NCBI RefSeq assembly: GCF_000814025.1
Contig: NZ_JWLL01000005.1
Location: 372,001-436,000 of the forward strand
Origin: Tateyamaria sp. ANG-S1
Lineage (GTDB): Bacteria > Pseudomonadota > Alphaproteobacteria > Rhodobacterales > Rhodobacteraceae
Reading direction: 5' to 3'
Length of the DNA: 64,000 nucleotides
The translations under genes and the position numbers were made by a program. Numbering within the stretch: position 1 is the stretch's first letter; the number at the start of each line of letters is the position of its first letter. Positions 50,047 through 62,415 of the stretch are shown one piece after another. The notes under the pieces are model-generated. The model did not search any database, was not told the DNA's origin, and was given only the letters and a program-made list of their open reading frames with translations.

Positions 50047-50076
50047 GGAGCGCGCGGTGCTATCGCCGCGCGTTCC
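50047..50076. terminator. Hairpin between convergent porin and permease genes
   Basis: GGAGCGCGCGG (50047-50057) and CCGCGCGTTCC (50066-50076) pair over eleven positions with one G-T, loop of eight. It overlaps the end of the permease gene. There is no T tract, so termination is only possible. Confidence 0.4.
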
Positions 50077-50884
50077 AGCTGATCGAGGCGTGGCGCCGCG
50101 TATAAAACTCGCCCATCAGCCCGATCATCAACAGCACAACGCCCACCCACCATGCGTATTCCCAAGTTGAGTAACGCGGGTTGTAGTTGATGAAGGTGAA
50201 GCCGCGCGACTGGTCAATAATGTGAAACAGCGGGTTCCAGTCGAACATGGCCAGCATGAAACTGGGCAACGTATTGGCGACGAACATCTTGCCTGACGCG
50301 ATCATGTTGGCGCGCTGGTAGATGGTTGAGAAAATCGACACGAATGTCGGAAACCACGGTTTGATCGCAAGCAGGACCACGCCGAGCGCACAGCCGGTGA
50401 ACCACGCCAGCAGCAGCATACCGAACGCCGCAAAGGGTTGTTCGATATGAATGGGCGTGAACGCGACATGGTAGATGAACAGAATCACAAACAGAGACAG
50501 CACTTGGATATAGAGCGCGCCGAGTGCAGCCGAGCAGATGGACACGATGGTGTTCATCGGCGCGTGTTGCATCATGGGACTGGCCGGACCTTCGGCACCC
50601 ATGACCGCGCCCAGTGACTTCACATGTGTCATGTACAGGAAGATGCCTGTCATGATGTAGAGCAGAAAGTCGCCCCGGATCGCAGCACCGCGCAGGCCGA
50701 GGATCGAGAACATCACGTAGAATGCCAACACGAAGATGGCGGCCTGCAACATATTGAGCGCAATCGCCATAAAGGCGTTGTTGTGGCTTTTCCGCACGCT
50801 CCGCACGATCGAGTGATAGATCACCTCGAACATTGCGACGGCGCTGCCCAGGCCCGTCTGCGGTTTGCGCGTTGATTGAAACAT
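50060..50884 (-). CDS. ABC-2-type polysaccharide export permease (KpsM/RfbA-like)
   Basis: A 274-residue membrane protein with about six hydrophobic segments (for example MLQAAIFVLAFYVMFSILGL, YIQVLSLFVILFIYHVAF and YAWWVGVVLLMIGLM), the ABC-2 permease pattern used to export capsule or O-chain. ATG at 50884 is chosen (MFQSTRKPQTGLGS); the longer frame is implausible. Its ATPase partner (KpsT) is not in the window and the gene upstream, cysQ, is divergent, so it is an orphan here. The adjacent glycan genes support a capsule export role. Confidence 0.83.
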   Translation of the reverse strand: MFQSTRKPQTGLGSAVAMFEVIYHSIVRSVRKSHNNAFMAIALNMLQAAIFVLAFYVMFSILGLRGAAIRGDFLLYIMTGIFLYMTHVKSLGAVMGAEGPASPMMQHAPMNTIVSICSAALGALYIQVLSLFVILFIYHVAFTPIHIEQPFAAFGMLLLAWFTGCALGVVLLAIKPWFPTFVSIFSTIYQRANMIASGKMFVANTLPSFMLAMFDWNPLFHIIDQSRGFTFINYNPRYSTWEYAWWVGVVLLMIGLMGEFYTRRHASISWNARR

Positions 50885-51003
50885 AAGCGGTTTTGCCTCG
50901 TGCGGTGCGAAAGTCGCAGGGAAATCTTGCCGTTCCGTTATCGCGCGACCATAAGGACGACGCGGGCCGTTTTCAACAAATGCCCGACAATGGAGACTTT
51001 TTG

Positions 51004-51801
51004 ATGACCTATGATGATTTGATCCCGGTGATACGCAAGCTGGCACTCGAGGCGGGCGACAAGATCATGGAGATCTATGACGCCGACGATTTCGATGTGA
51101 AAGTCAAATCCGATGACAGCCCTGTGACCGAAGCCGACGAGGCGGCGGATGCGCTGATCTCGGCGGGTCTGCGCGCTGCCTTTCCTGATGTGATGCTGGT
51201 GACTGAAGAACAGGCCGCCACGCACGACACGACCGGCACCACCTTCCTGATTGTCGATCCGCTGGATGGGACCAAGGAGTTCGTGCATCGCCGTGGCGAC
51301 TTCACCGTCAACATTGCGCTGGTCGAAGATGGCGCGCCGACCCGTGGTGTCGTCTATGCGCCCGCCAAGGGGCGGATGTTCTACACGCAGGCCGATGGTC
51401 AAACGGTCGAAGAAACTGGCGCGCTGGACAAGGATACCGTGGGTGAGGTCACGCCTCTGTCCGTTGCCGACAGCGACAATACCGCATTGATGGTTGTCGC
51501 CTCCAAATCCCACCGGGATCAGGCGACGGATGACTACATCAACAAATATGCAGTCAAAGACATGAAAAGCGCGGGATCGTCCCTGAAATTCTGCCTTGTG
51601 GCGACGGGCGAAGCGGACATTTACCCGCGCGTTGGCCGTACGATGGAATGGGACACCGCCGCAGGGCATGCCGTGTTGAAGGGTGCAGGCGGCAAGGTGG
51701 TTCGGTTCGATGACCACTCCCCCCTTGCTTATGGCAAGGACGGATATGCGAACCCGTTCTTCATCGCCTATGCGCCTGCGGTGGACCTGAAACCGGCCTG
51801 A
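51004..51801 (+). CDS. cysQ: 3'(2'),5'-bisphosphate nucleotidase CysQ
   Basis: Hydrolyses 3'-phosphoadenosine 5'-phosphate, the by-product of PAPS use, to AMP. The 265-residue inositol-phosphatase-fold protein has metal-binding Glu68-Glu69 (VTEEQ), DPLDGTKEF at 85-93 and the C-terminal WDTAAGHAVL. The ATG at 51004 follows GGAGAC at good distance; an in-frame ATG at 50980 is less favoured. Its TGA overlaps the kdsB ATG by one base. Linkage to kdsB and, 8 kb on, to a sulfotransferase suggests that it supports glycan sulfation in addition to sulfate assimilation. Confidence 0.93.
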   Translation: MTYDDLIPVIRKLALEAGDKIMEIYDADDFDVKVKSDDSPVTEADEAADALISAGLRAAFPDVMLVTEEQAATHDTTGTTFLIVDPLDGTKEFVHRRGDFTVNIALVEDGAPTRGVVYAPAKGRMFYTQADGQTVEETGALDKDTVGEVTPLSVADSDNTALMVVASKSHRDQATDDYINKYAVKDMKSAGSSLKFCLVATGEADIYPRVGRTMEWDTAAGHAVLKGAGGKVVRFDDHSPLAYGKDGYANPFFIAYAPAVDLKPA

Positions 51802-52601
51802 TGTCCGTACTGATCGTCATTCCGGCCCGCTATGCGTCGTCCCGCTATCCGGGCAAGCCGCTTGTGCCTTTGACCGGTGCGACCGGGCAGGCACAAACGC
51901 TGATCGAGCGCAGCTGGCGGGCTGCCATGGCGGTGAGCGGGGTCGACCGCGTCGTGGTTGCGACCGACGATGATCGGATCAAGGCGGCGTCCGAAGCGTT
52001 CGGCGCCGAGGTCGTGATGACATCCGAAGCCTGTCAGAATGGGACTGAGCGCTGCGCCGAAGCGCATGCCGCGCTGGGCGGTGGATATGACGTGGTTGTC
52101 AATCTGCAGGGCGATGCGCCGTTGACCCCCGCCTGGTTCATCGAAGATCTTGTCGCTGGTCTGAACGCTGCGCCAGAGGCCGAGATCGCAACGCCGGTGC
52201 TGCGCTGTGACGGTGCCACGCTGCGCGGGTTTCTGGAGGATCGCAAAGCCGGGCGTGTTGGAGGTACCACCGCGGTGTTCGGCGCGTCGGGGCAAGCGCT
52301 GTATTTTTCGAAGGAAGTGATTCCCTTCACCAACGAAACCTACGCAGACGATGCGGACACACCGGTGTTCCACCATGTCGGGGTCTATGCTTATCGTCCG
52401 GATGCACTGGCTGCCTATTCCGGCTGGTCTGTTGGACCGCTTGAGAGCCTGGAAGGTTTGGAGCAGTTGCGGTTCCTTGAGAACGGGCGGCAGGTCCTGT
52501 GTGTCGAGGTCGAGGCGCGGGGGCGGCAGTTCTGGGAGCTGAACAACCCGGCGGATGTGCCCAAGATCGAGGCGATGATGGCGGAGATGGGTGTGGCATG
52601 A
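51801..52601 (+). CDS. kdsB: CMP-Kdo synthetase (3-deoxy-manno-octulosonate cytidylyltransferase)
   Basis: Activates Kdo as CMP-Kdo for lipopolysaccharide or for the Kdo linker of capsules. The 266-residue protein has VIPARYASSRYPGKPL at residues about 6-21, NLQGDAPLTP, FHHVGVYAYRPDAL and LESLEGLEQLRFLENG. This is close to the capsule-type KdsB/KpsU group, but the two cannot be separated by eye. It overlaps the next glycosyltransferase by four bases (ATGA), so cysQ-kdsB-GT2 form one coupled unit. Confidence 0.92.
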   Translation: MSVLIVIPARYASSRYPGKPLVPLTGATGQAQTLIERSWRAAMAVSGVDRVVVATDDDRIKAASEAFGAEVVMTSEACQNGTERCAEAHAALGGGYDVVVNLQGDAPLTPAWFIEDLVAGLNAAPEAEIATPVLRCDGATLRGFLEDRKAGRVGGTTAVFGASGQALYFSKEVIPFTNETYADDADTPVFHHVGVYAYRPDALAAYSGWSVGPLESLEGLEQLRFLENGRQVLCVEVEARGRQFWELNNPADVPKIEAMMAEMGVA

Positions 52602-53827
52602 CCCAACCCAAGGTCAGTGTTGTGGTGGTCAGCCGCGACCGGCCAGATGCGCTGACCTGGTGCCTGACGGGACTGTCGCAACTTCAGTACACCGCGTTTG
52701 AAATTGTCGTCGTCGCCGATCCACCGGGGTATGAGGCCGTTCAGGCGGGCCCCTTTGCAGATCAGGTCAAGCTGGTTCCCTTCGACCGCCCGAATATCTC
52801 GGAGGCGCGCAATCTTGGGATCAGCCACGCCGCCGGTGACATTGTCGCTTTCATTGATGATGACGCTGTGCCTGAACCCAGCTGGCTGCATCAGCTGATT
52901 GCCCCGGTATCCCGACCTGACGTGGCGGCGATGGGCGGTTTCGTGCGCGGGCGCAACGGTATCTCGTGGCAGTGGCAAGCCCGTACAGTCGATGAAACCG
53001 GTGCAACCGAAGCGCTGGAAGTCAGTCCGCACCGGGCGACGGTTCTGACACCAAAGGGTGCTCGCGCCATCAAGACCGAAGGGACGAACATGGCCGTGCG
53101 CCGTGACGTGTTGGTCGCGCTTGAGGGGTTTGATCCGGGTTTTGCCTTTTACCTTGATGAAACGGACCTGAACCTGCGCTTGAAACGGGCGGGCTATGCC
53201 ACCGCCTTGGTGCCTGGGGCCGAGGTGCATCATGGATTTGCTGCAAGCCCACGGCGGCGCAAGGATCGCGTGCCCCGCGATCTGTTTGATATCGGGTCAA
53301 GCTGGGCCGTTTTTCAGCGCAAGTATCTGCAAGAGGCGCAGCGCCGCGACCACTGGCGGCACCTCAGGGAACATGAGCGCAGGCGCGTGCTGGAGCATAT
53401 GGTGTCCGGACGGCTTTTGCCGCGAGACGTGCGCTATCTCATGGCGCGTCTTGATCAGGGGTACAGCCAGGGTTTGATGCGGCAACGCGGCGGTGCTCAG
53501 ATTTCGAACAGTCCGGTGTCAGCATTCAAACCGTTTCCGGCGTCGCAGCGCGCATCGATCGTACTGGCGGGCCGAAGCTGGCAGCGCAAAAAGTTGCGGG
53601 CCGAAGCTGCCGAGAGAGCGCAGAGCGGAGACATCGTGACCTTGTTCCTGTTCTCGCCAACGGCGCTCTATCACACGGTCCGATTTGACCCTGCCGGATT
53701 CTGGGAGCAACGGGGTGGTGTGTTTGGTCGCTCTGTGCGAGAAGCGCCCTTGTTTCGAATGTTTACATTTTCTGAGCGGGTCGCGGCGGAAACACGCCGC
53801 ATCGGCAAACAAAGGCTGATTTTTTGA
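52598..53827 (+). CDS. Family 2 glycosyltransferase with basic C-terminal extension
   Basis: A 410-residue protein. Residues 1 to about 220 are a GT-A fold of family 2: VSVVVVSRDRPDAL, the metal-binding Asp87-Asp88-Asp89 (AFIDDDAVPEP) and YLDETDLNLRLKRAGY. The remaining 190 residues are strongly basic with no recognised domain. It uses a nucleotide sugar; donor and acceptor are unknown. Translation is coupled to kdsB by the ATGA overlap, so the enzyme could act on a Kdo-linked glycan. No membrane segment is apparent, so the protein is probably a peripheral cytoplasmic enzyme. Confidence 0.85.
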   Translation: MTQPKVSVVVVSRDRPDALTWCLTGLSQLQYTAFEIVVVADPPGYEAVQAGPFADQVKLVPFDRPNISEARNLGISHAAGDIVAFIDDDAVPEPSWLHQLIAPVSRPDVAAMGGFVRGRNGISWQWQARTVDETGATEALEVSPHRATVLTPKGARAIKTEGTNMAVRRDVLVALEGFDPGFAFYLDETDLNLRLKRAGYATALVPGAEVHHGFAASPRRRKDRVPRDLFDIGSSWAVFQRKYLQEAQRRDHWRHLREHERRRVLEHMVSGRLLPRDVRYLMARLDQGYSQGLMRQRGGAQISNSPVSAFKPFPASQRASIVLAGRSWQRKKLRAEAAERAQSGDIVTLFLFSPTALYHTVRFDPAGFWEQRGGVFGRSVREAPLFRMFTFSERVAAETRRIGKQRLIF

Positions 53828-53949
53828 TGCTCTTGGCGCCTACAGGCAATATTTATCCGTCGTGGATGACCCATCAGGTTTTGGACATTTTTTTATCGTG
53901 ATTTAGTAGTAAGACACGATCAAACCCGGATAACTTTTAAGTTCAGAGG

Positions 53950-54849
53950 ATGATTATGCGAAAAAAGGTAACCAAAGCGATCTTTCCGGTGGCAGGTTTG
54001 GGCACGCGGTTCTTGCCGGCGACCAAATCCGTCCCGAAAGAGATCATGACACTCGTTGATCGTCCGCTGATCCAGTATGCCATTGATGAAGCCCGCGCCG
54101 CTGGCATCAAGGAATTCATCTTTGTTACATCGCGCGGCAAGGGCGCACTTGAGGACTACTTTGATCATTCGCCAACCCTGGAACAGGAGTTGCGCAAGAA
54201 GGGCAAGGACGACTTGCTGGACGTGCTCAAGGGCACCAACATGGATAGCGGTGCAATCGCGTATATCCGTCAGCACAAGGCGCTTGGCCTGGGCCACGCG
54301 GTCTGGTGCGCGCGGCGTCTGATCGGCAATGAACCCTTTGCCGTGATCCTGCCCGATGACGTGATTGCCGCAGACACGCCGTGCCTGCAGCAAATGGTCG
54401 AGGCTTACAACGAAACCGGCGGCAACGTGGTTGCCGCCATGGAGGTGCCGCCCGAGCGTGCGTCGTCCTATGGTGTCTTGGACATCAAGGAAGACATGGG
54501 TCATCTGGTCGAAGCCAAGGGCATGGTTGAGAAACCGGCTCCGGGCGAGGCACCCTCGAACCTGGCGGTCATTGGCCGCTACATTCTCACGACCAAGGTG
54601 CTGCGTTCCCTGAACCAGATGAAGTCGGGTGCGGGTGGTGAAATTCAGCTGACCGACGCGATCGCGAGCGAGATTGGCGGCGAAGATGGGGTCTATGGCT
54701 ACCGCTTCCGTGGTCAGCGGTTCGACTGCGGTTCGAAGTCGGGCTTCTTGCAAGCGACTGTTGCGTTCGGCCTGGCCCGCGAAGAATTGCGGGATGACCT
54801 TTTGGGTTATATCCGTGATGTTGTCCAAATGGACAAGGCGGCCGAATAG
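53950..54849 (+). CDS. galU: UTP-glucose-1-phosphate uridylyltransferase
   Basis: Makes UDP-glucose, precursor for many glycans. The 299-residue protein has the nucleotide-binding start FPVAGLGTRFLPATKSVPKEIM (residues 13 onward), TSRGKGALEDYFD, LGLGHAVWCARRLIG and VEKPAPGEAPSNLAVIGRYIL. Start ATG at 53950 (MIMRKK); ATG at 53956 is also possible and lies well behind AGAGGATG. The 122 bases upstream are AT-rich and contain an ATCGTG/CACGAT inverted pair, so a promoter probably lies there. It is followed by galE after 14 bases. Confidence 0.95.
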   Translation: MIMRKKVTKAIFPVAGLGTRFLPATKSVPKEIMTLVDRPLIQYAIDEARAAGIKEFIFVTSRGKGALEDYFDHSPTLEQELRKKGKDDLLDVLKGTNMDSGAIAYIRQHKALGLGHAVWCARRLIGNEPFAVILPDDVIAADTPCLQQMVEAYNETGGNVVAAMEVPPERASSYGVLDIKEDMGHLVEAKGMVEKPAPGEAPSNLAVIGRYILTTKVLRSLNQMKSGAGGEIQLTDAIASEIGGEDGVYGYRFRGQRFDCGSKSGFLQATVAFGLAREELRDDLLGYIRDVVQMDKAAE

Positions 54850-54863
54850 AACGGAACGACAGC

Positions 54864-55847
54864 TTGGCACATTTGCTTGTCACTGGTGGAGCCGGTTACA
54901 TCGGCTCCCACGCATGCAAGGCGTTGCGGAACGCGGGCTTTGTTCCCGTCACCTTTGACAACCTGGAAACCGGCTGGAGCGATGCCGTAAAGTTTGGGCC
55001 GTTTGTGCAGGGCGATCTTTTGGACCGTGCGGCCGTTGACCGCGCCTTTGCCGAATACAGTCCTGTTGCAGTCATGCACTTTGCCGCGCTCAGCCAGGTT
55101 GGCGAGAGCATGCAGGACCCAGGTCGCTACTGGCGCAACAACGTTATGGGTTCGCTGACGCTGATTGAAGCTGCCGTGGCTGCGGGGTGTCTGGATTTCG
55201 TATTCTCCTCGACCTGCGCCACCTATGGCGATCAGGACAATGTCGTGCTGGATGAAAGCAGTGCGCAACTGCCGATCAACGCCTATGGCGCATCAAAGCG
55301 CGCCATCGAGGATATGCTGCGCGACTTTGAAGCGGCCCATGGGCTGCGCCATGTGATTTTTCGCTATTTCAACGTGGCGGGTGCCGATCCAGAGGGCGAG
55401 GTGGGTGAGTTCCACCAACCTGAGACGCATCTTGTCTCCCTGATGCTTGATGCCATTGCTGGCAAGCGTGATGCGCTGACCGTTTACGGTACCGACTATG
55501 ACACGCCTGACGGCACGTGCATTCGTGACTACGTGCATGTGTGCGATCTGGTGGACGCGCATGTGCTGGGCCTGAAGTGGTTGCAGGACGGCAAGGGCAG
55601 TCGGGTGTTCAATCTGGGCACCGGCAGTGGCTTTTCCGTGCGGGAAGTGATTGATCATTCGCGTGCTGTCACGAACAAGAGCGTGCCGTACGTAGACGGG
55701 GAACGGCGCCCCGGCGATTGCACCAAGCTGGTGTCGGGTTCCACGCGCGCCGAGGCCGAACTGGGTTGGACGCCGAAGCGGTCAACGCTAGACATCATGA
55801 TCAAAGACGCCTGGAGATGGCACCAAACTGGGCACTACGACGCATAA
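54864..55847 (+). CDS. galE: UDP-glucose 4-epimerase
   Basis: Interconverts UDP-glucose and UDP-galactose. The 327-residue Rossmann-fold protein has VTGGAGYIGSHAC (6-18) and the catalytic pair Tyr141 and Lys145 in NAYGASKRAIE, plus Ser/Thr of SSTCATYG. YVHVCDLVDAH and NLGTGSGFSV are also typical. The start is TTG, one of several non-ATG starts in this cluster. Directly after galU, it supplies two UDP-sugars to the glycan pathway. The next gene follows without a visible canonical start (see findings). Confidence 0.95.
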   Translation: MAHLLVTGGAGYIGSHACKALRNAGFVPVTFDNLETGWSDAVKFGPFVQGDLLDRAAVDRAFAEYSPVAVMHFAALSQVGESMQDPGRYWRNNVMGSLTLIEAAVAAGCLDFVFSSTCATYGDQDNVVLDESSAQLPINAYGASKRAIEDMLRDFEAAHGLRHVIFRYFNVAGADPEGEVGEFHQPETHLVSLMLDAIAGKRDALTVYGTDYDTPDGTCIRDYVHVCDLVDAHVLGLKWLQDGKGSRVFNLGTGSGFSVREVIDHSRAVTNKSVPYVDGERRPGDCTKLVSGSTRAEAELGWTPKRSTLDIMIKDAWRWHQTGHYDA

Positions 55848-55884
55848 ACCCCCTACTGCACGCCTGCTGGATCTGACACGGCTG

Positions 55885-56997
55885 ATGCGCCGGGTGGGGC
55901 GTGTGTTGACAGGGGTGGACCGGGTTGAGCGTGCTTACCTGCTTGCACTGCAGGACGCGCCGGAACCGCTCTATGGCCTCGTCCGATCAAGATATGGGTA
56001 CATTCTGCTGGATCCGGGTGGCGTTGCTGAAATGACGCCGATCCTGTCCGGTCGCGCGAACAAGGGTCAGTGCGCGAGGGCGTGGCAGGTCGCGCGCCGC
56101 GCCGCCGTGTCGCGTGGATTACCTTGGGCACTGCCCCGCATGTTGCGGAAGCATGTCCCAGCGGGCAGTGCTTACCTGAACACCGGTCATTCGAATGTCA
56201 CTGAGCGTGTCCTGCGTGCCATGGAAAGCGCCGAAATCTCCATCGCGGTGTTTGTTCACGATGTTATTCCGCTGGAGTTTCCCCACTTCCAGCGTGACGG
56301 ATCTGTCACACCATTTCGGGCGATGATCGACCGCGTCGCGGCGCGTGCGGACCTGGTTATCTACAATTCCGACGACACGAAGACACGGGCCGAAGCACAT
56401 ATGCCGGACCGCATACCGCAATCTATTGTCGCCCATCTGGGAACAGAGATTGCCTCTCCGCAGCCCGAGGATCTGCCAAAGGACCTGCCGCCCGAGGGTC
56501 CTTACTTTGTCACACCGGGCACGATTGAGCCGCGCAAAAACCATGCCTTTCTGCTCGATCTATGGGACGAAATGGGTGCGGATGCGCCTGTTCTTGTCAT
56601 TGCTGGGTCGCGCGGGTGGAAGAATGAAGCCGTCTTTTCGCGTCTCGACGCGCTGGGCAAGGGAAGCCGTGTCAGGGAAGTGTCCGGGCTCAGCGACGGT
56701 GCGTTAAGCGCTCTGGTCAGTGGTGCGGCTGGCGTTTTGTTGCCCTCTCATGCCGAAGGGTTCGGGCTTCCTGCGGTCGAGGCTGCGGCTCTTGGTGTTC
56801 CTGTGGTGGTGAACACGCTGGATGTCTATGGCGAGTTCCTCGGCGACATACCCATTTACGCAGACGTTTCAGATCGTTATCTGTGGATAAGGACAATCAA
56901 AACACTGACCGAAGCAGGGCAACGCACGTATCAGGATCACACGTTTGATTTGCCCAGTTGGGAGGCGCACTTCAAGACTGTGTTAAGGTTGACCTGA
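55885..56997 (+). CDS. Family 4 (GT-B) glycosyltransferase, start uncertain
   Basis: A GT-B-fold transferase of 370 residues from the ATG at 55885. The C-terminal half has GTIEPRKNHAFLLDLWDEM, the nucleotide-sugar-binding PSHAEGFGLPAVEAAALGVPVV with its Glu-x7-Glu pattern, and VVNTLDVYGEF. The frame remains open upstream and reads TARLLDLTRLMRRVGR across the ATG; family members commonly begin with this LLDLTR stretch. No ATG, GTG or TTG occurs upstream before the in-frame stop at 55798, but a CTG at 55828 sits eleven bases after GGAG. Donor and acceptor unknown. 37 bases after galE, probably cotranscribed. Confidence 0.82.
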   Translation: MRRVGRVLTGVDRVERAYLLALQDAPEPLYGLVRSRYGYILLDPGGVAEMTPILSGRANKGQCARAWQVARRAAVSRGLPWALPRMLRKHVPAGSAYLNTGHSNVTERVLRAMESAEISIAVFVHDVIPLEFPHFQRDGSVTPFRAMIDRVAARADLVIYNSDDTKTRAEAHMPDRIPQSIVAHLGTEIASPQPEDLPKDLPPEGPYFVTPGTIEPRKNHAFLLDLWDEMGADAPVLVIAGSRGWKNEAVFSRLDALGKGSRVREVSGLSDGALSALVSGAAGVLLPSHAEGFGLPAVEAAALGVPVVVNTLDVYGEFLGDIPIYADVSDRYLWIRTIKTLTEAGQRTYQDHTFDLPSWEAHFKTVLRLT

Positions 56998-57045
56998 TAG
57001 GCGCGGACAAGGCCGGACCTCTCGGCCGGCACAGGACGGGGTAAT

Positions 57046-58056
57046 TTGGGTGCTTGGCAGTCATATAGGCTGAGGCTTCAGCGTAAGCGGTGGCGTATCC
57101 GGGCGTTCCGGAAGCGCAGGGAATTGTCGCGTATCGTAGACCGCACGGATCAGATCCGCCCCTCTGACCTGTTGTGCTTTTCCACCCAACGGAACGAAGC
57201 GATCCGGCTGCCGTATTTCCTGAACTACTACCGCGACATGGGCATCAACCATTTCCTGATCGTGGACAATGACAGTTCGGACGGGTCGCTTGATTATCTT
57301 GCTCAGCAGCCCGATGTGTCCGTCTGGTCGACCAAGGCCAGCTACAAACGCTCGCGCTTTGGCGTGGACTGGTTGAACTGGCTTCAGATGAAGTACGGGC
57401 ATGGTCACTGGACGCTGGTTGTCGATCCGGATGAGTTCCTTGTCTATCCGTTCTGCGACACGCGGCCATTGCGGGCGCTGACCGATTGGCTGGACGCCTC
57501 TTCGATCAAGTCGTTTTCGGCCATGCTGCTCGACATGTACCCGAAAGGGCGCTTGGATGCGCAGCCCTATGTTGCCGGGCAGAACCCGATGGAGATTGCC
57601 AGCTGGTTCGACAGCGGCAACTATACGATTTCGAAGAACCATGCGCTGGGAAATCTGTGGATTCAGGGCGGCCCCCGGGCACGTGTCTTTTTCCCCGACG
57701 AACCGGCCCGCGCGCCTGCGCTGAACAAGATACCGCTGGTCAAGTGGGACCGGCGCTATGCCTATGCCAGCTCGACCCATATGCTGTTGCCCCGTGGTCT
57801 GAACCAGGTGTTTGACGAATGGGGTGGTGAAAAGGCCTCGGGCGTTTTGTTGCATGCCAAGTTTCTCGACACGTTCACGGCCAAGGCGGCCGAGGAACTG
57901 GCCCGCAAGCAACACTATTCGGCTTCGGTTGAATACAAGGCGTATGCTGCAACCATGCGCGATGATCCGGATCTGTGGTGCAAGTGGTCCGAAAAGTACA
58001 TCAACTGGCGCCAGCTTGAGATTCTGGGCCTGATGTCCAAGGGCAACTGGGCATGA
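57046..58056 (+). CDS. GT2-like glycosyltransferase (Glyco_tranf_2_4 type)
   Basis: A 336-residue protein. The motif LCFSTQRNEAIRLPYFLNYY (about 43-62), then HFLIVDNDSSDGSLDYL and LVVDPDEFLVYP (metal-binding Asp-x-Asp), mark the Glyco_tranf_2_4 group of GT-A enzymes, often found in surface polysaccharide loci of roseobacters and related species. It starts at a TTG (57046) after GACGGGG. A basic N-terminal helix (RLRLQRKRWRIRAFRKRR) could touch the membrane. It overlaps the following gene by four bases (ATGA). Confidence 0.85.
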   Translation: MGAWQSYRLRLQRKRWRIRAFRKRRELSRIVDRTDQIRPSDLLCFSTQRNEAIRLPYFLNYYRDMGINHFLIVDNDSSDGSLDYLAQQPDVSVWSTKASYKRSRFGVDWLNWLQMKYGHGHWTLVVDPDEFLVYPFCDTRPLRALTDWLDASSIKSFSAMLLDMYPKGRLDAQPYVAGQNPMEIASWFDSGNYTISKNHALGNLWIQGGPRARVFFPDEPARAPALNKIPLVKWDRRYAYASSTHMLLPRGLNQVFDEWGGEKASGVLLHAKFLDTFTAKAAEELARKQHYSASVEYKAYAATMRDDPDLWCKWSEKYINWRQLEILGLMSKGNWA

Positions 58057-59750
58057 GCGTCGGTATCGTCATGCTGGTGCATACCGCACTTGATCGCGCC
58101 GAACAGGCGGCGCGGTTCTGGGCCACCGGTGGCTGCCCGGTGGTCATCCATGTCGACGTAAACGTGCGGAAGCCGATATTTGAGGCTTTTGCAAAGGCGC
58201 TGTCTGACGTGCCAATGATCAAGTTTTCAAAGCGGTTCCGCTGTGAATGGGGCACCTGGGGCATCGTGGCCGCCAGTCAGGCCGCATCAGAGATGATGCT
58301 GGATAGCTTTCCGGATATGCGTCATGTCTACCTGGCGTCCGGGTCCTGTTTGCCGCTGCGCCCGGTCGATGAACTGGTCGATTACCTTGCCGATCGACCC
58401 CGGACGGATTTCATCGAAAGCGCTACCACGGCCGATGTCCCCTGGACCGTCGGTGGTCTGGACCACGAACGTTTTACCCTGCGCTTTCCATTCTCGTGGA
58501 AGCGGAACCGGTTCCTGTTTGATAAATACGTCGACCTGCAGCGCAAGTTTGGCATGAAGCGCAAGCTTCCAGCGGGCATTGTGCCGCATATGGGCAGCCA
58601 ATGGTGGTGCCTGACGCGCCAAACCCTTTCGGCGATCCTTCAAGGCCCCGACCGTCAGGAATACGATGCCTATTTCAAGCAGGTGTGGATCCCGGACGAA
58701 AGCTATTATCAGACACTGGCGCGGCAATATTCGATTGAGATCGAAAGCAGGTCACTGACCCTGTCCAAGTTCGATTTCCAGGGCAAGCCTCACATTTTTT
58801 ATGATGATCACCTGCAGCTTTTGCGCCGGTCCGACTGTTTTGTCGCGCGCAAGATCTGGCCCCATGCCAATCGTCTGTATGACGCATTCCTGACTGATCC
58901 GGCAGGCGCGATGAAGCGGACCGAGCCCAACCCGGGCAAGATTGACCGCATCTTTGCCAAGGCTGTTGAGCGCCGTACGCGCGGTCGGCCCGGGCTTTAC
59001 ATGCAAAGCCGTTTTCCGAACGAAGACTGGGAAAACGGGGTAACGGCGGCGCCTTATTCGGTCTTTCAGGGCTTTACCGAAATCTTTGAGAATTTCGAGC
59101 CATGGTTGGCCAAGGCAACGGGCGCGCGGGTGCATGGTCATCTGTTCCATCCCAAGCGCGTCGAGTTTGCGGATGGTGAGACGACGCTGAACGGTGCCCT
59201 CAGCAACAGCCCCAAAACGCGCGATTACAACGCCAATGCCTTTCTGACCAACCTGATCTGGAACACGCGCGGCGAACGGCAATGCTTCCAATTTGGCCCC
59301 GATGACAATCAGGCCGTCAATTGGAAGATCGCCAAGGACCCGAACGCGCAAATCTCAGTTATCTCGGGCGCCTGGTCGGTTCCTCTTTTTCGGTCGAACC
59401 TGAACTTCATGGACATCCGGAAAGAGGCAGCGCGCCTGCAAAAGATCGAAAGCGATCACCTTGACGTGTTGCGGTCGCCCTATGCCAAGGCGCGCATTCG
59501 CATCTGGACCATGGCCGAATTTGTCGAGGCACCGATGGAGCCCTTGCAGGGCATATTGGACGAGATTGGCCTGACCCACGCCCGTCGCTTGTCCGAGGTG
59601 CCGAAGCTCGCAAACCTGACGGGTTTTGGTCAGTTCCTGCAAAACCTGAAAAACCAGGGCATGCACCCGTATTTGATGGGTGATTTTCCCGTGGCACTCG
59701 GCCCCAAGGTGGCCGAGGCTCCGCCACGCAAACCTTACTTGGTGCGTTAA
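58053..59750 (+). CDS. Core-2/I-branching-like GlcNAc transferase (GT14) with extra C-terminal domain
   Basis: A 565-residue protein. The first 280 residues match the Branch domain of family 14 transferases: GIVMLVHTALDRAEQAARF, VYLASGSCLPLRPVDELVD, GSQWWCLTRQTLSAIL and WIPDESYYQTLARQY. In animals such enzymes add branching GlcNAc; the bacterial enzyme is inferred to add a branching sugar, probably from a UDP sugar. Residues 290-565 form a second domain without a motif I recognise; it is common in alphaproteobacterial homologues. It is coupled to the GT2-like gene before it and lies six bases before the sulfotransferase, so the three probably modify the same polymer. Confidence 0.87.
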   Translation: MSVGIVMLVHTALDRAEQAARFWATGGCPVVIHVDVNVRKPIFEAFAKALSDVPMIKFSKRFRCEWGTWGIVAASQAASEMMLDSFPDMRHVYLASGSCLPLRPVDELVDYLADRPRTDFIESATTADVPWTVGGLDHERFTLRFPFSWKRNRFLFDKYVDLQRKFGMKRKLPAGIVPHMGSQWWCLTRQTLSAILQGPDRQEYDAYFKQVWIPDESYYQTLARQYSIEIESRSLTLSKFDFQGKPHIFYDDHLQLLRRSDCFVARKIWPHANRLYDAFLTDPAGAMKRTEPNPGKIDRIFAKAVERRTRGRPGLYMQSRFPNEDWENGVTAAPYSVFQGFTEIFENFEPWLAKATGARVHGHLFHPKRVEFADGETTLNGALSNSPKTRDYNANAFLTNLIWNTRGERQCFQFGPDDNQAVNWKIAKDPNAQISVISGAWSVPLFRSNLNFMDIRKEAARLQKIESDHLDVLRSPYAKARIRIWTMAEFVEAPMEPLQGILDEIGLTHARRLSEVPKLANLTGFGQFLQNLKNQGMHPYLMGDFPVALGPKVAEAPPRKPYLVR

Positions 59751-59756
59751 TTCTCT

Positions 59757-61184
59757 ATGGCCAATTTCGACTATTTCGTTGTGTTCGCAGAGATGCGCAC
59801 AGGGTCCAATTTTCTTGAGACGAACCTGAACGCCTTTGACGGCATCTCGTGTCACGGAGAGGCTTTCAACCCGTTTTTCATCGGTTACCCGAACAAGGAT
59901 GACATTCTGGGCGTCACGTTGGCCGCACGGGATGACAATCCGAAAACCCTGTTGCGCGCGATAAAGAAAGCGCCGGATCTGAACGGGTTTCGTTATTTCC
60001 ACAACCATGATCCGCGCATCTTTGACAAGATCATGGACGATCCAAAATGCGCCAAGATCGTGCTGACGCGCAATCCGGTTGACAGCTATGTCTCTTGGAA
60101 GATTGCGCGGGCCACCGGCCAATGGAAGCTGACGGATGCCAAGGCGCGCAAGGATGGCAGAGCCACATTTGATGCAGACGAGTTCGCGGCCCATCTGGGT
60201 GCGCTGCAGGATTTTCAGGTGACCTTGCTGAACCGTCTGCAGGCATCGGGCCAGACCGCATTCTACCTTGCCTACGAGGATTTGCAGAGCTTGAGCGCCA
60301 TGAACGGCCTGGCCAAGTGGTTGGGTGCGAACAGTACGCTTGAGGCATTGGACAAGAGCCTAAAGGTGCAAAACCCCAGTGCGTTGTCTGACAAGGTCAG
60401 CAATTTCCGGCATATGACCGATGCGTTGTCCGGTCTGGACCGGTTCAATCTGACGCGCACACCGAATTTCGAACCGCGGCGTGGTGCGGCTGTGCCCACT
60501 TACTTCGCCAGCCAGACTGCCCCGCTCATGTATCTTCCGGTTCGTGGTTGGCCAGAGGATCAGGCGCTGCGTTGGATGCAGGCGATAGATGGGGTTGAGG
60601 GCGCTAAGCCTGCATCGAAGTTGTCACAGAATGAAATGCGGGATTGGATGCGTGCCCATCCGGGCCACCGCAGTTTCAGTGTCCTGCGCAATCCGCTGGC
60701 CCGTGCCCACGCTGTGTTCTGCCACCGCATTCTGAATACGGGCCAGGGCGGCTACGGCGGCATCCGTTCCGTTCTGATCAAGCGGTACAAGATGGTCCTG
60801 CCCGATGATCCGGGCGCGGCCACCTACGACAAGGCTGCGCACAGGGATGCGTTCGCGGCCTTCCTGACGTTTCTCAAGGCCAATCTAAATGGCCAGACAT
60901 CTGTGCGGGTGGACCCAGATTGGGCAAGCCAAGCCAAGATTATCGAGGGGTTTGCCGAGTTTGTCCTGCCGGATCGGTTGGTCCGCGCTGAAACGATGGC
61001 TGACGAATTGGCTGAACTGGGCGCAGCGGTCGGGCTGAACTCTGTGCCCGAACCCGGCGCTGCGGCTGCCGACGCGCCCTATCAATTGATCGACATTTAC
61101 GATTCACAAATCGAAGAGATGTGTCGCGCCGTTTACGCTCGCGACTACCTGATGTTCGGCTTCAAAGACTGGGCGCCGGCCTAG
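59757..61184 (+). CDS. Sulfotransferase with two sulfotransferase-like halves
   Basis: A 475-residue protein. The first half has the PAPS phosphosulfate loop FAEMRTGSNFLETNL (10-24) and the 3'-phosphate-binding IVLTRNPVDSYVSWK with Arg105 and Ser110, as in Stf0/NodH-type enzymes. The second half has SFSVLRNPLARAHAVFCHRI (from residue 306, Arg311), similar to the 3'-phosphate motif of sulfotransferase family 2, but no clear P-loop of its own. It would transfer sulfate from PAPS to a sugar hydroxyl. The position after three transferases and in the same region as cysQ suggests sulfation of the exported polysaccharide. It shares CTAG with ptsN. Confidence 0.85.
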   Translation: MANFDYFVVFAEMRTGSNFLETNLNAFDGISCHGEAFNPFFIGYPNKDDILGVTLAARDDNPKTLLRAIKKAPDLNGFRYFHNHDPRIFDKIMDDPKCAKIVLTRNPVDSYVSWKIARATGQWKLTDAKARKDGRATFDADEFAAHLGALQDFQVTLLNRLQASGQTAFYLAYEDLQSLSAMNGLAKWLGANSTLEALDKSLKVQNPSALSDKVSNFRHMTDALSGLDRFNLTRTPNFEPRRGAAVPTYFASQTAPLMYLPVRGWPEDQALRWMQAIDGVEGAKPASKLSQNEMRDWMRAHPGHRSFSVLRNPLARAHAVFCHRILNTGQGGYGGIRSVLIKRYKMVLPDDPGAATYDKAAHRDAFAAFLTFLKANLNGQTSVRVDPDWASQAKIIEGFAEFVLPDRLVRAETMADELAELGAAVGLNSVPEPGAAAADAPYQLIDIYDSQIEEMCRAVYARDYLMFGFKDWAPA

Positions 61185-61645
61185 GCGGCCTGCGCAGGTT
61201 TCGCTTCGTTCAGGATTGCAAAAAGCGTGCTGGCGTCGGGATTGGCGCGCAGCTTGGTGCAAATGGCCGGGTCGCGCAATGTGCGCGACACCAAGGCCAG
61301 CGCCTTGAGATGTTCAACGCCCGCCTCTTCGGGCGCAAACAAGGCAAAGGCGATGTCGACCGGCTGACGGTCAACCGCGTCGAAATCAATGGGCTTGTCG
61401 AGCAGAACAAACGCGCCGATCACGTCCGAGACGTCATCAAGCCGTGCATGGGGCAGCGCAACGCCATTGCCCACACCCGTGGGCCCCAATGCCTCGCGTG
61501 CGATCAAGGATTCGACCACTTGCCCGGCATTCACGTCATAGGCGCTTTGCACAAGATCACCGATCTCGTGAAAAAGCCGCTTCTTGGACGAGGCGGAGGT
61601 CACGACCTTGACCGCCTCGGGTTTCAAAAGGGTCCCAAAATTCAT
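61181..61645 (-). CDS. ptsN: Nitrogen-related PTS EIIA protein
   Basis: The 154-residue EIIA-Ntr accepts phosphate from the nitrogen PTS and modulates potassium, carbon and nitrogen regulation by protein contact. The phosphorylated His66 lies in NGVALPHARLDD. It follows hpf by 36 bases on the same strand, the usual hpf-ptsN pair. No rpoN gene occurs in this cluster. It is convergent with the sulfotransferase. Confidence 0.95.
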   Translation of the reverse strand: MNFGTLLKPEAVKVVTSASSKKRLFHEIGDLVQSAYDVNAGQVVESLIAREALGPTGVGNGVALPHARLDDVSDVIGAFVLLDKPIDFDAVDRQPVDIAFALFAPEEAGVEHLKALALVSRTLRDPAICTKLRANPDASTLFAILNEAKPAQAA

Positions 61646-61681
61646 TCTGCTCGCTTGTCGGTGCGCCGTGGCACCGATCCC

Positions 61682-62245
61682 TTACGGGTCGATCCAGCCA
61701 ATGTTCCCGTCATCGCGACGGTAGACCACGTTCAGCCCGTCTTTCCCTTCGTTTCGGAACACCAGCACAGGGGCGCCCGCCAATTCCATTTGCATGACCG
61801 CTTCACCGACCGAAAGGGATGGGATCTTGGTTTCCATCTCGGCCACGATCATTGGCTGCAGGGTCTCAGGCTCCGAGTCGCCTGCGCCATCGTCAGAGGC
61901 GAGGATATAAGAGGCTGCGCCGGAGAGTTCAACCGGCTGCGCGCGTTCCTTGTGATGGTCCTTGAGCCGCCGCTTGTAGCGCCGCAACTGCTTTTCCATT
62001 TTATCGGAACAGCCGTCAAAAGCGGCATAGATTTCAGTGGCATGGGCCTTGGCCTGGGCGGTCAGGCCGGTAGACAGGTGCACGGTCGCCTCGCAGACGA
62101 ATTCATGTGCCGACTTGGAAAACACGACTTGGGCATTGGTCGGGCGTTCGGCATATTTCTGCACAACTGCCCCCAAATCATCCCGTACATGGGTTTGCAG
62201 CGCTTCGCCGATGTCGATCTGTTTGCCACTGATTTGATACTGCAT
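61682..62245 (-). CDS. hpf: Long-form ribosome hibernation promoting factor
   Basis: A 187-residue protein that dimerises 70S ribosomes in slow growth. The N-terminal domain (1 to about 105) has QISGKQIDIGEALQTHV, IYAAFDGCSDKMEKQLRRYK, which bind the 30S. The C-terminal domain (about 128-187) has KIPSLSVGEAVMQMELAGAP and NVVYRRDDGNIGWIDP, the dimerising part of the long form, which makes 100S ribosomes without a separate RMF. I chose the ATG at 62245 because it starts at the conserved MQYQISGKQ. A good promoter candidate lies between lptB and this gene. Confidence 0.95.
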   Translation of the reverse strand: MQYQISGKQIDIGEALQTHVRDDLGAVVQKYAERPTNAQVVFSKSAHEFVCEATVHLSTGLTAQAKAHATEIYAAFDGCSDKMEKQLRRYKRRLKDHHKERAQPVELSGAASYILASDDGAGDSEPETLQPMIVAEMETKIPSLSVGEAVMQMELAGAPVLVFRNEGKDGLNVVYRRDDGNIGWIDP

Positions 62246-62415
62246 TCTTGCTCCTTCTGGTATGTCCGCGACGCACGTCCTTGACCACCAAGTCATTGGC
62301 GGCGCTGACGTATCTAGAATGGCGGATTTGGCCTGTCGTGACCCTGATCTATGTCAACACGCCTCGGATGGGCGACGACATTGCAGATCATGGACAGCGT
62401 GACAGCCATACCGGT

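Follow-up and report, generated by a model that had tools for sequence, protein, structure and literature searches.

Does a gene cluster that unites a capsule-type permease, several glycosyltransferases and a sulfotransferase produce a sulfated capsule, and where are the remaining parts of its exporter? This question is raised by a 64,000-nucleotide stretch (the window, C28:372001-436000) of the 4.43 Mb genome of Tateyamaria sp. ANG-S1. An earlier note on this DNA had proposed a sulfated surface polymer linked through 3-deoxy-D-manno-octulosonic acid (Kdo), relying on two pairs of neighbours: the sulfotransferase gene with cysQ, which encodes a phosphatase of 3'-phosphoadenosine 5'-phosphate (PAP), and the Kdo activation gene kdsB with the permease gene. 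Our analysis suggests, with a probability of roughly two in three (0.68), that the locus is the synthesis-and-permease part of a Kdo-primed, probably sulfated capsule exported by an ATP-binding cassette (ABC) transporter, with genes dispersed over four loci and conserved in the family. The reasoning from cysQ and kdsB as neighbours fails, but a sulfated Kdo-linked polymer is still favoured, because the module defined below is co-inherited with unlinked genes for the ATPase KpsT, for KpsC/KpsS and for a second sulfotransferase. The identities of the parts, the motifs for the sulfate donor, the conserved synteny, the unlinked positions and the co-inheritance are all established at the level of sequence.

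Backbone and module genes of the locus

The genes of the locus and its usual right-hand neighbour are as follows (window coordinates).

50060..50884, minus strand: capsule-type ABC permease, VexB/KpsM-like by profile matches; start at ATG 50884 assumed; no kpsT adjoining
51004..51801, plus strand: cysQ, 3'(2'),5'-bisphosphate (PAP) phosphatase, backbone gene; TIGR01331 above cut-off
51801..52601, plus strand: kdsB, CMP-Kdo synthetase, backbone gene; NF003950 above cut-off
52598..53827, plus strand: GT2 glycosyltransferase; PF13641/PF00535
53950..54849, plus strand: galU, UDP-glucose pyrophosphorylase, backbone gene; TIGR01099 above cut-off
54864..55847, plus strand: galE, UDP-glucose 4-epimerase, backbone gene whose presence varies; TIGR01179 above cut-off
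55885..56997, plus strand: GT4 glycosyltransferase; PF00534
57046..58056, plus strand: PF13704 GT2-like glycosyltransferase, core module gene; Pfam match
58053..59750, plus strand: GT14 'Branch' domain fused to DUF5927, core module gene; PF02485 E 2e-14, PF19349 E 7e-165
59757..61184, plus strand: two-domain sulfotransferase; NodH-like N half, Sulfotransfer_2-like C half
61181..61645, minus strand: ptsN, phosphotransferase system EIIA-like, usual right-hand neighbour; PF00359

Every gene named in the earlier note was found, and its list can be refined: the permease is encoded on the minus strand, the glycosyltransferase genes number four (GT2, GT4, PF13704 GT2 and GT14-DUF5927), and the sulfotransferase has two domains. 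Since all genes from cysQ through the sulfotransferase gene, in the order listed, share a single strand with intergenic gaps of -4 to 122 bp, one operon is plausible; 119 bp separate the assumed starts of cysQ and the divergent permease gene. The GC content of the cluster is unremarkable compared with the rest of the window. The permease matches Pfam ABC2_membrane (E 0.36) and the NCBIfam models VexB (E 1e-10) and KpsM (E 1e-6) below their cut-offs; as a 24-row profile it finds 8tsh_C, the permease chain in a series of solved capsule exporter structures, at E 6e-17, and it is classed here with the KpsM-type permeases of ABC-transporter-dependent (group 2/3) capsules. No KpsT is encoded beside it, the sole ABC ATPase among the scanned window genes (~42.3-63.7 kb) being LptB.

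We compared 46 loci by tblastn with the window genes and read the counts from the resulting table. All 28 sulfotransferase-bearing loci contain the PF13704 GT2 and DUF5927 genes. The permease gene is present in 26 of them, the other two being L067, which begins inside the locus, and L108, which is split; ptsN follows in 26/28 as well (exceptions L068 and L107). Because ptsN and the permease gene each recur at this frequency, the arrangement is not due to chance, and the conserved order that the earlier note had proposed to look for in relatives is indeed seen. In the genome with the split locus (G075), permease-cysQ-kdsB lie ~147 kb apart from PF13704-DUF5927-sulfotransferase (L108; G075:C1:3591353-3593895). 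Among the 26 relatives seen whole, 18 carry the GT2 gene and 17 the GT4 gene; in the other nine (L064, L068, L083, L092, L096, L098-L101) a second PF13704 GT2 replaces GT4, and the GT2 gene is missing as well from eight of the nine (L064 retains it). With such replacements and losses, some of the glycan is likely to differ from genus to genus.

In the 13 module-free loci (excluding the genomes G057 and G074, described below), the permease, GT2, GT4, PF13704, DUF5927 and sulfotransferase genes were found in none, three of the stretches (L079, L082, L086) ending at contig ends. In seven of the 13, galU still comes after cysQ, whether or not kdsB is present, and ptsN lies beyond in five of these seven. 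Because backbone genes persist where the module is missing, the locus is composed of a backbone (cysQ, kdsB, galU and galE) and a module (permease, glycosyltransferases and sulfotransferase) that is mostly present or absent as a unit.

This division determines how much the two neighbours can tell. In 149 genomes of the family, one per genus, we scored genes as near when they lay on the same strand within 15 kb, and found matches to the sulfotransferase in 122, to kdsB in 141 and to cysQ in 142; with 122 of 149 sampled genera positive, the description of such a polymer as uncommon among bacteria is too strong within the family. The further suggestion that the polymer mimics sulfated glycans of hosts or algae gains no support from these data. 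The sulfotransferase gene is near DUF5927 in 116 of the 119 genomes having both, on the same strand and 1.0-1.9 kb apart start to start. It is near cysQ in 102/119 (15 of the other 17 have the two on separate contigs) and near kdsB in 68/119 (41 on separate contigs, 10 on the same contig but distant). Thirty-five genomes have cysQ near the sulfotransferase gene with kdsB elsewhere, and three have kdsB near it with cysQ on another contig. In line with the prediction of the earlier note, cysQ accompanies the sulfotransferase gene more often than kdsB does, yet it also stays put where the module is missing (the seven of 13 loci above) and does not signal sulfation. Likewise, kdsB beside a capsule-type permease is no sign of Kdo linkage, as it remains, like cysQ and galU, where the module is gone.

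Adjacency of cysQ and kdsB was rejected as evidence for either property. The two genes are near each other in 14/22 genomes that have both but lack the sulfotransferase and in 76/117 with it (G074 being scored as having it here and as lacking it in the co-inheritance test), with starts less than 0.9 kb apart in all near pairs except one at 13.6 kb. Because these proportions are similar, the adjacency says little on sulfation. The earlier note would have given up its proposal if the two genes stayed adjacent without the sulfotransferase in all related genomes; they do so in the 14 of 22, and not in all. In Tateyamaria sp. ANG-S1, cysQ is the only match at E<=1e-20 and kdsB the single match by protein search, a second, weak kdsB Pfam match being a separate 474-aa frame; kdsB would therefore be required for lipid A in any case.

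Unlinked capsule genes and their inheritance with the module

All export and Kdo linker components usually found in one group 2/3 cluster are present in the genome, but kpsM, kpsTE and kpsS-wza-kpsC lie on different contigs. Contig C23, unlinked to the window, encodes KpsT and KpsE. KpsT (219 aa) has an ABC_tran match only, and it matches 8tsi_A (E 8e-39) and, below the cut-off, VexC (E 2e-29); KpsE matches BexC_CtrB_KpsE (E 8e-58, below the cut-off) and 8tsh_E (E 4e-29). Both proteins agree with their counterparts in group 2/3 systems, and together with the KpsM of the window they match chains of one solved series (8tsh/8tsi and others). The KpsE gene follows the KpsT gene in 6/6 loci read, with kdsA after them in 4/6 and phosphoglucomutase in 5/6. 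In the Tateyamaria genome itself (L121:9884-14555) kpsT-kpsE are followed by kdsA and phosphoglucomutase, and kdsA and kdsB thus both adjoin split capsule export genes. A search of the genome with the window permease gave no match at this locus; its KpsT was located by searching with the KpsT of a further set on contig C4.

On contig C32, genes for KpsS, a Wza/VexA-type protein and a dual-module KpsC stand in a row among riboflavin genes, and the same row was seen in three other loci read. For KpsC, each of the two modules with a solved structure (6mgc and 6mgd) gives a match. KpsS matches its profile at E 9e-65, below the cut-off, and no solved structural relative of it was found. The pair corresponds to the Kdo transferases of group 2/3 capsules, and the Wza-like protein (PF02563 plus SLBB; VexA E 1e-30, below the cut-off) to their outer-membrane exporter. 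The fourth locus, on contig C1 (L069:6141-8679), holds a GT14-DUF5928 gene divergent from that of a second sulfotransferase (Sulfotransfer_2, PF03567, E 3e-35). Among the second-GT14 matches listed, this pair is divergent and 112-212 bp apart in 27 of 28 genomes, the 28th being without such a sulfotransferase. The GT14 parts of the two fusion proteins align with each other (hhalign probability 100), whereas DUF5927 and DUF5928 give no alignment (0.5). In five single-contig genomes, assuming circular chromosomes, the window locus, KpsT and KpsS are ~0.36-1.6 Mb apart, and the distance from the window locus to the second sulfotransferase gene is 70 to 429 kb.

The KpsT-KpsE-KpsM set on contig C4 (L119:6565-18254), accompanied by a UDP-sugar dehydrogenase, a WbsX/RgpF protein and a large glycosyltransferase, is probably a second capsule or glycan exporter. 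As a partner of the window glycosyltransferases it is not favoured: its permease is 22% identical to that of the window, and ATPases of its type occur in the module-free genomes G067 and G130.

The association of these loci was counted in the same 149 genomes, 132 of which are at least 90% complete. Each line gives genomes with both genes / the window-type sulfotransferase only / the other gene only / neither, for the 132 and then for all 149.

Window-type KpsM: 111/0/2/19; 119/2/5/23
DUF5927: 109/2/2/19; 118/3/3/25
KpsC/S: 111/0/6/15; 121/0/12/16
KpsT: 110/1/3/18; 120/1/8/20
Second sulfotransferase: 106/5/2/19; 115/6/5/23
cysQ (backbone control): 110/1/19/2 (p 0.07); 118/3/24/4
kdsB (backbone control): 108/3/19/2 (p 0.18); 118/3/23/5

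In the 132 genomes, Fisher p is <=2.5e-15 for KpsM, DUF5927, KpsC/S, KpsT and the second sulfotransferase, in tests that ignore ancestry and are inflated where it is shared. G074, with only partial, unlinked matches (best E 2e-10), was counted as lacking the sulfotransferase. Five genomes with only weak PF05159 matches (E > 1e-20) were scored as lacking KpsC/S, five with only a KpsT of <=43% identity as lacking KpsT (with only 20 candidates per genome scored), and KpsM matches weaker than ~1e-39 as absent.

Ancestry was considered with two trees. The first, of 42 loci and the window (L067 and three paralogue loci excluded), gave nine Fitch changes of the module. The second, built from five marker proteins, holds 38 rows (37 loci and the window, five further loci without a profile being excluded) and is modest in quality, with long branches for L080, L086 and L107 and 14 rows covering under half the columns; the module state again changes nine times. 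In six independent pairs on well-supported branches, KpsT changes in the same way as the module in six, KpsC/S in a mean of 5.6 and the second sulfotransferase in a mean of 5.4, and an opposite change never occurs (median sign-test p 0.03 for KpsT and for KpsC/S, 0.06 for the second sulfotransferase).

Sulfotransferase domains and a proposed route to the polymer

The window-type sulfotransferase is 475 aa long, and its closest named relatives among the six loci found are from Tateyamaria (86, 81 and 78% identical), the enzyme of Tateyamaria omphalii being the one with 86% identity. Its N half matches PDB 9vki, annotated as 'LPS sulfotransferase NodH', at E 8e-5 alone and at E 4e-15 as a 22-row profile, aligning across roughly its first 150 residues. 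Two groups of residues, R14, G16, S17 and N18, and R105, P107 and S113, are invariant in 22/22 rows. We take them to be the two motifs of this fold that bind the sulfate donor 3'-phosphoadenosine 5'-phosphosulfate (PAPS), the 5'-phosphosulfate-binding (5'-PSB) loop and the 3'-phosphate-binding (3'-PB) motif; the N half would therefore carry both hallmarks of a PAPS-dependent carbohydrate sulfotransferase.

The C half matches Sulfotransfer_2 (PF03567, E 9e-5) beginning at profile position 63, and its hhalign alignment with the second sulfotransferase of the genome (probability 93.7) begins at residue 73 of the latter. Since both matches begin this late, the C half lacks the P-loop part, and no PAPS P-loop was recognisable in it by profile match or hhalign. 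The protein is predicted to consist of one complete and one reduced sulfotransferase-like domain. Compared with NodH-type enzymes such as 9vki, the N half is alike, whereas here it is fused to a Sulfotransfer_2-like domain without a P-loop. The two halves align with each other at a probability of only 21.8. DUF5927 was considered as a further sulfotransferase-like domain, but hhalign reached a probability of 37 at best (against the N half) and this is not claimed. The structure model of the sulfotransferase (mean predicted local distance difference test score 53.8) is usable in the C half only; a fold search with it returned 269 matches at E up to 10, the best being the sulfotransferase 3rnl at E 0.05 and none reaching E<=0.001. 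The model of GT14-DUF5927 is poor (44.9).

We infer the chemistry of the polymer, its acceptor and linkage, its sulfation in the cell and the origin of a single product from all four loci as follows. The remote dual-module KpsC and KpsS would use CMP-Kdo, supplied through KdsB of the window and KdsA (encoded beside kpsT-kpsE), to assemble a short linker of Kdo on a lipid. GT2, GT4, the PF13704 GT2 and GT14-DUF5927 would extend the glycan, with UDP-glucose and UDP-galactose supplied via GalU and GalE. The NodH-like enzyme would add sulfate from PAPS while CysQ clears PAP, and in most of the genomes with this capsule set the second sulfotransferase, beside GT14-DUF5928, would add sulfate too. 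In the inner membrane, the KpsM of the window would assemble with KpsT and KpsE from their remote locus, and a Wza/VexA-type protein, likewise encoded elsewhere, would carry the chain outward. CysQ and KdsB presumably serve both the capsule and the rest of the cell.

Alternative explanations and known systems

Several observations weigh against this capsule. The link among the four loci is statistical; PF05159 cannot separate KpsC from KpsS, and in all 149 genomes the backbone controls are weakly associated too (cysQ p 0.02, kdsB p 0.006). The observations on KpsE come from six loci and those on the Wza-like protein from only four. GT2 and GT4 differ between genera, and the second KpsM-KpsT-KpsE set here, like second KpsM/KpsT matches elsewhere, could share KpsC/S. 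The structure models are weak, and the fold search found nothing below E 0.05. Finally, G057 has the permease, glycosyltransferases, DUF5927, KpsT, KpsC/S and the second sulfotransferase but not the window-type one, and DUF5927 directly adjoins ptsN there (L088:6900-8727). G074 has the module without either sulfotransferase in place, with partial unlinked relatives of the first only. Both belong to the six genomes of at least 90% completeness in which KpsC/S occur without the window-type sulfotransferase. At this completeness, five genomes have the latter without the second sulfotransferase. Because G057 and G074 keep the module without the sulfotransferase(s), capsule machinery and sulfation are linked but separable.

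The most probable alternative, although we still regard it as unlikely, makes use of this separability: the capsule would be real, but the sulfotransferase would merely reside in a polysaccharide operon and act on another acceptor (a lipid or a lipopolysaccharide (LPS) sugar) or be inactive. The enzyme is dispensable, as G057 has the module without it, and its C half has no P-loop. However, the PAPS motifs are intact in all 22 rows, the gene keeps its distance of 1.0-1.9 kb from GT14-DUF5927 in 116/119 genomes, and the other GT14 protein has a sulfotransferase of a different kind as its partner.

An LPS function is suggested by the right-hand flank, where ptsN is followed by further genes that also face the cluster:

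61682..62296, minus strand: hpf, S30AE ribosome-associated protein; PF02482, PF16321
62465..63711, minus strand: lptB and lptA, LPS export; PF00005+PF12399, PF03968, names resting on matches and neighbourhood

The module could then sulfate or extend LPS (outer core or O-antigen) with the permease as a Wzm-like O-antigen exporter, and both the adjoining lptB-lptA and kdsB and the match of the N half to an 'LPS sulfotransferase NodH' chain would fit. We consider this rather improbable, somewhat more so than a sulfotransferase with another acceptor. The permease matches VexB/KpsM profiles, and as a profile it finds 8tsh_C (E 6e-17) well ahead of TarG 6jbh (6e-5) and of 6oih and 6m96 (~1e-3), which we take to be Wzm chains. 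Many Wzt proteins carry an extra C-terminal domain and some lack it; the co-inherited ATPase, with 219 aa and ABC_tran only, is without such a binding domain, a feature that is not exclusive, and a KpsE family protein comes next in 6/6 loci read. Moreover, KpsC/S co-occur with the module, and the lpt neighbours persist after its loss (e.g. L072-L075, L081).

Least probable is a plain housekeeping neighbourhood, in which ancestry, assembly gaps or the size of the genomes would account for the co-inheritance and each locus would have its own job. In its favour, a number of module-free genomes are small or branch off near the base of the tree, the Fisher tests are inflated by common ancestry, and across all 149 genomes cysQ and kdsB associate weakly as well; but the changes are repeated and nested, unlinked loci change together, and genomes of at least 90% completeness without the module mostly keep cysQ and kdsB (19/21 each).

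The dispersed, probably sulfated capsule can be compared with several known systems. Group 2/3 ABC capsules (KpsMTEDCS) share all six export and Kdo linker components with this genome (KpsM, T, E, D-like, C and S), but the genes, usually in a single cluster, are spread here over three unlinked loci, with the second GT14-sulfotransferase pair at a fourth. The Vi antigen exporter has counterparts to the permease, the ATPase, the KpsE-like protein and the outer-membrane protein, whose profile matches (to VexB, VexC, VexD and VexA in this order) fall below the cut-offs; the Vi system is not known to have KpsC/S or sulfotransferases, which are present here.

Cobetia marina KMM 1449 is described as having a sulfated ABC capsule whose cluster, ~70 genes divided among several regions, includes cysQ, a sulfotransferase gene and genes for PAPS; kpsSC there faces a kpsETMD operon, and galF is 584 kb off (PMC11766843). 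A sulfotransferase, cysQ and ABC export are common to both bacteria, whereas the kps genes are clustered there and dispersed here. The sulfated capsule of Vibrio sp. KMM 8419 is assigned to an 80-gene locus with an ABC exporter, kpsS, several sulfotransferases and a rhamnose operon but no kpsC, with kpsF and kpsU distant from the cluster (PMC11641403). Tateyamaria resembles it in the ABC exporter, KpsS, the presence of more than one sulfotransferase and the remote position of some kps genes, and differs in having KpsC and in having no rhamnose operon among the scanned window genes. In the related bacterium Rhodobacter capsulatus, the capsule bound by its gene transfer agent (RcGTA) needs other genes, namely rcc01081-01086, a repeat-unit initiation gene and wzc-wzb-wza (PMC10218006). 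This set suggests a Wzy-type layout, and no wzc/wzb match was found among the scanned window genes.

Sulfated ABC capsules are therefore already known from Cobetia and Vibrio, where each is presented as a single gene cluster with a few distant genes. No published description of such a dispersed system, or of DUF5927 or DUF5928, was found in the literature searched, a collection whose coverage leaves out most subscription journals. At slightly less than even odds, we tentatively propose more: that a capsule system whose genes are divided among four unlinked loci, each conserved by itself in most genera, is gained and lost nearly as one, that the two GT14-sulfotransferase pairs (DUF5927 with a fused double enzyme, DUF5928 with a single one) form an apparently undescribed route to a sulfated, Kdo-anchored polymer, and that this is a near-default surface trait of roseobacters. 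If so, most of the genera sampled (by one genome each) in a widespread, mostly marine family would have a sulfated capsule in common, one that searches for gene clusters would overlook, its parts being unclustered. It would be a testable source of sulfated polymer at sea, with four defined loci for genetics and a likely function class for DUF5927 and DUF5928. A relevance to phage binding, biofilm or algal contact would then be a suggestion only.

Among the remaining features of the window, an antisense open reading frame at 61121-62284 has no Pfam match, and a defence library scan of three proteins gave 0 matches. To the left of the permease gene lie genes for a porin, a 2OG-Fe(II) oxygenase (labelled alkB), dnaK and dnaJ. 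Approximately 23 kb to the left of the window (L120:9672-10583), a 303-aa protein shows a weak Capsule_synth match (PF05159, E 2e-7).

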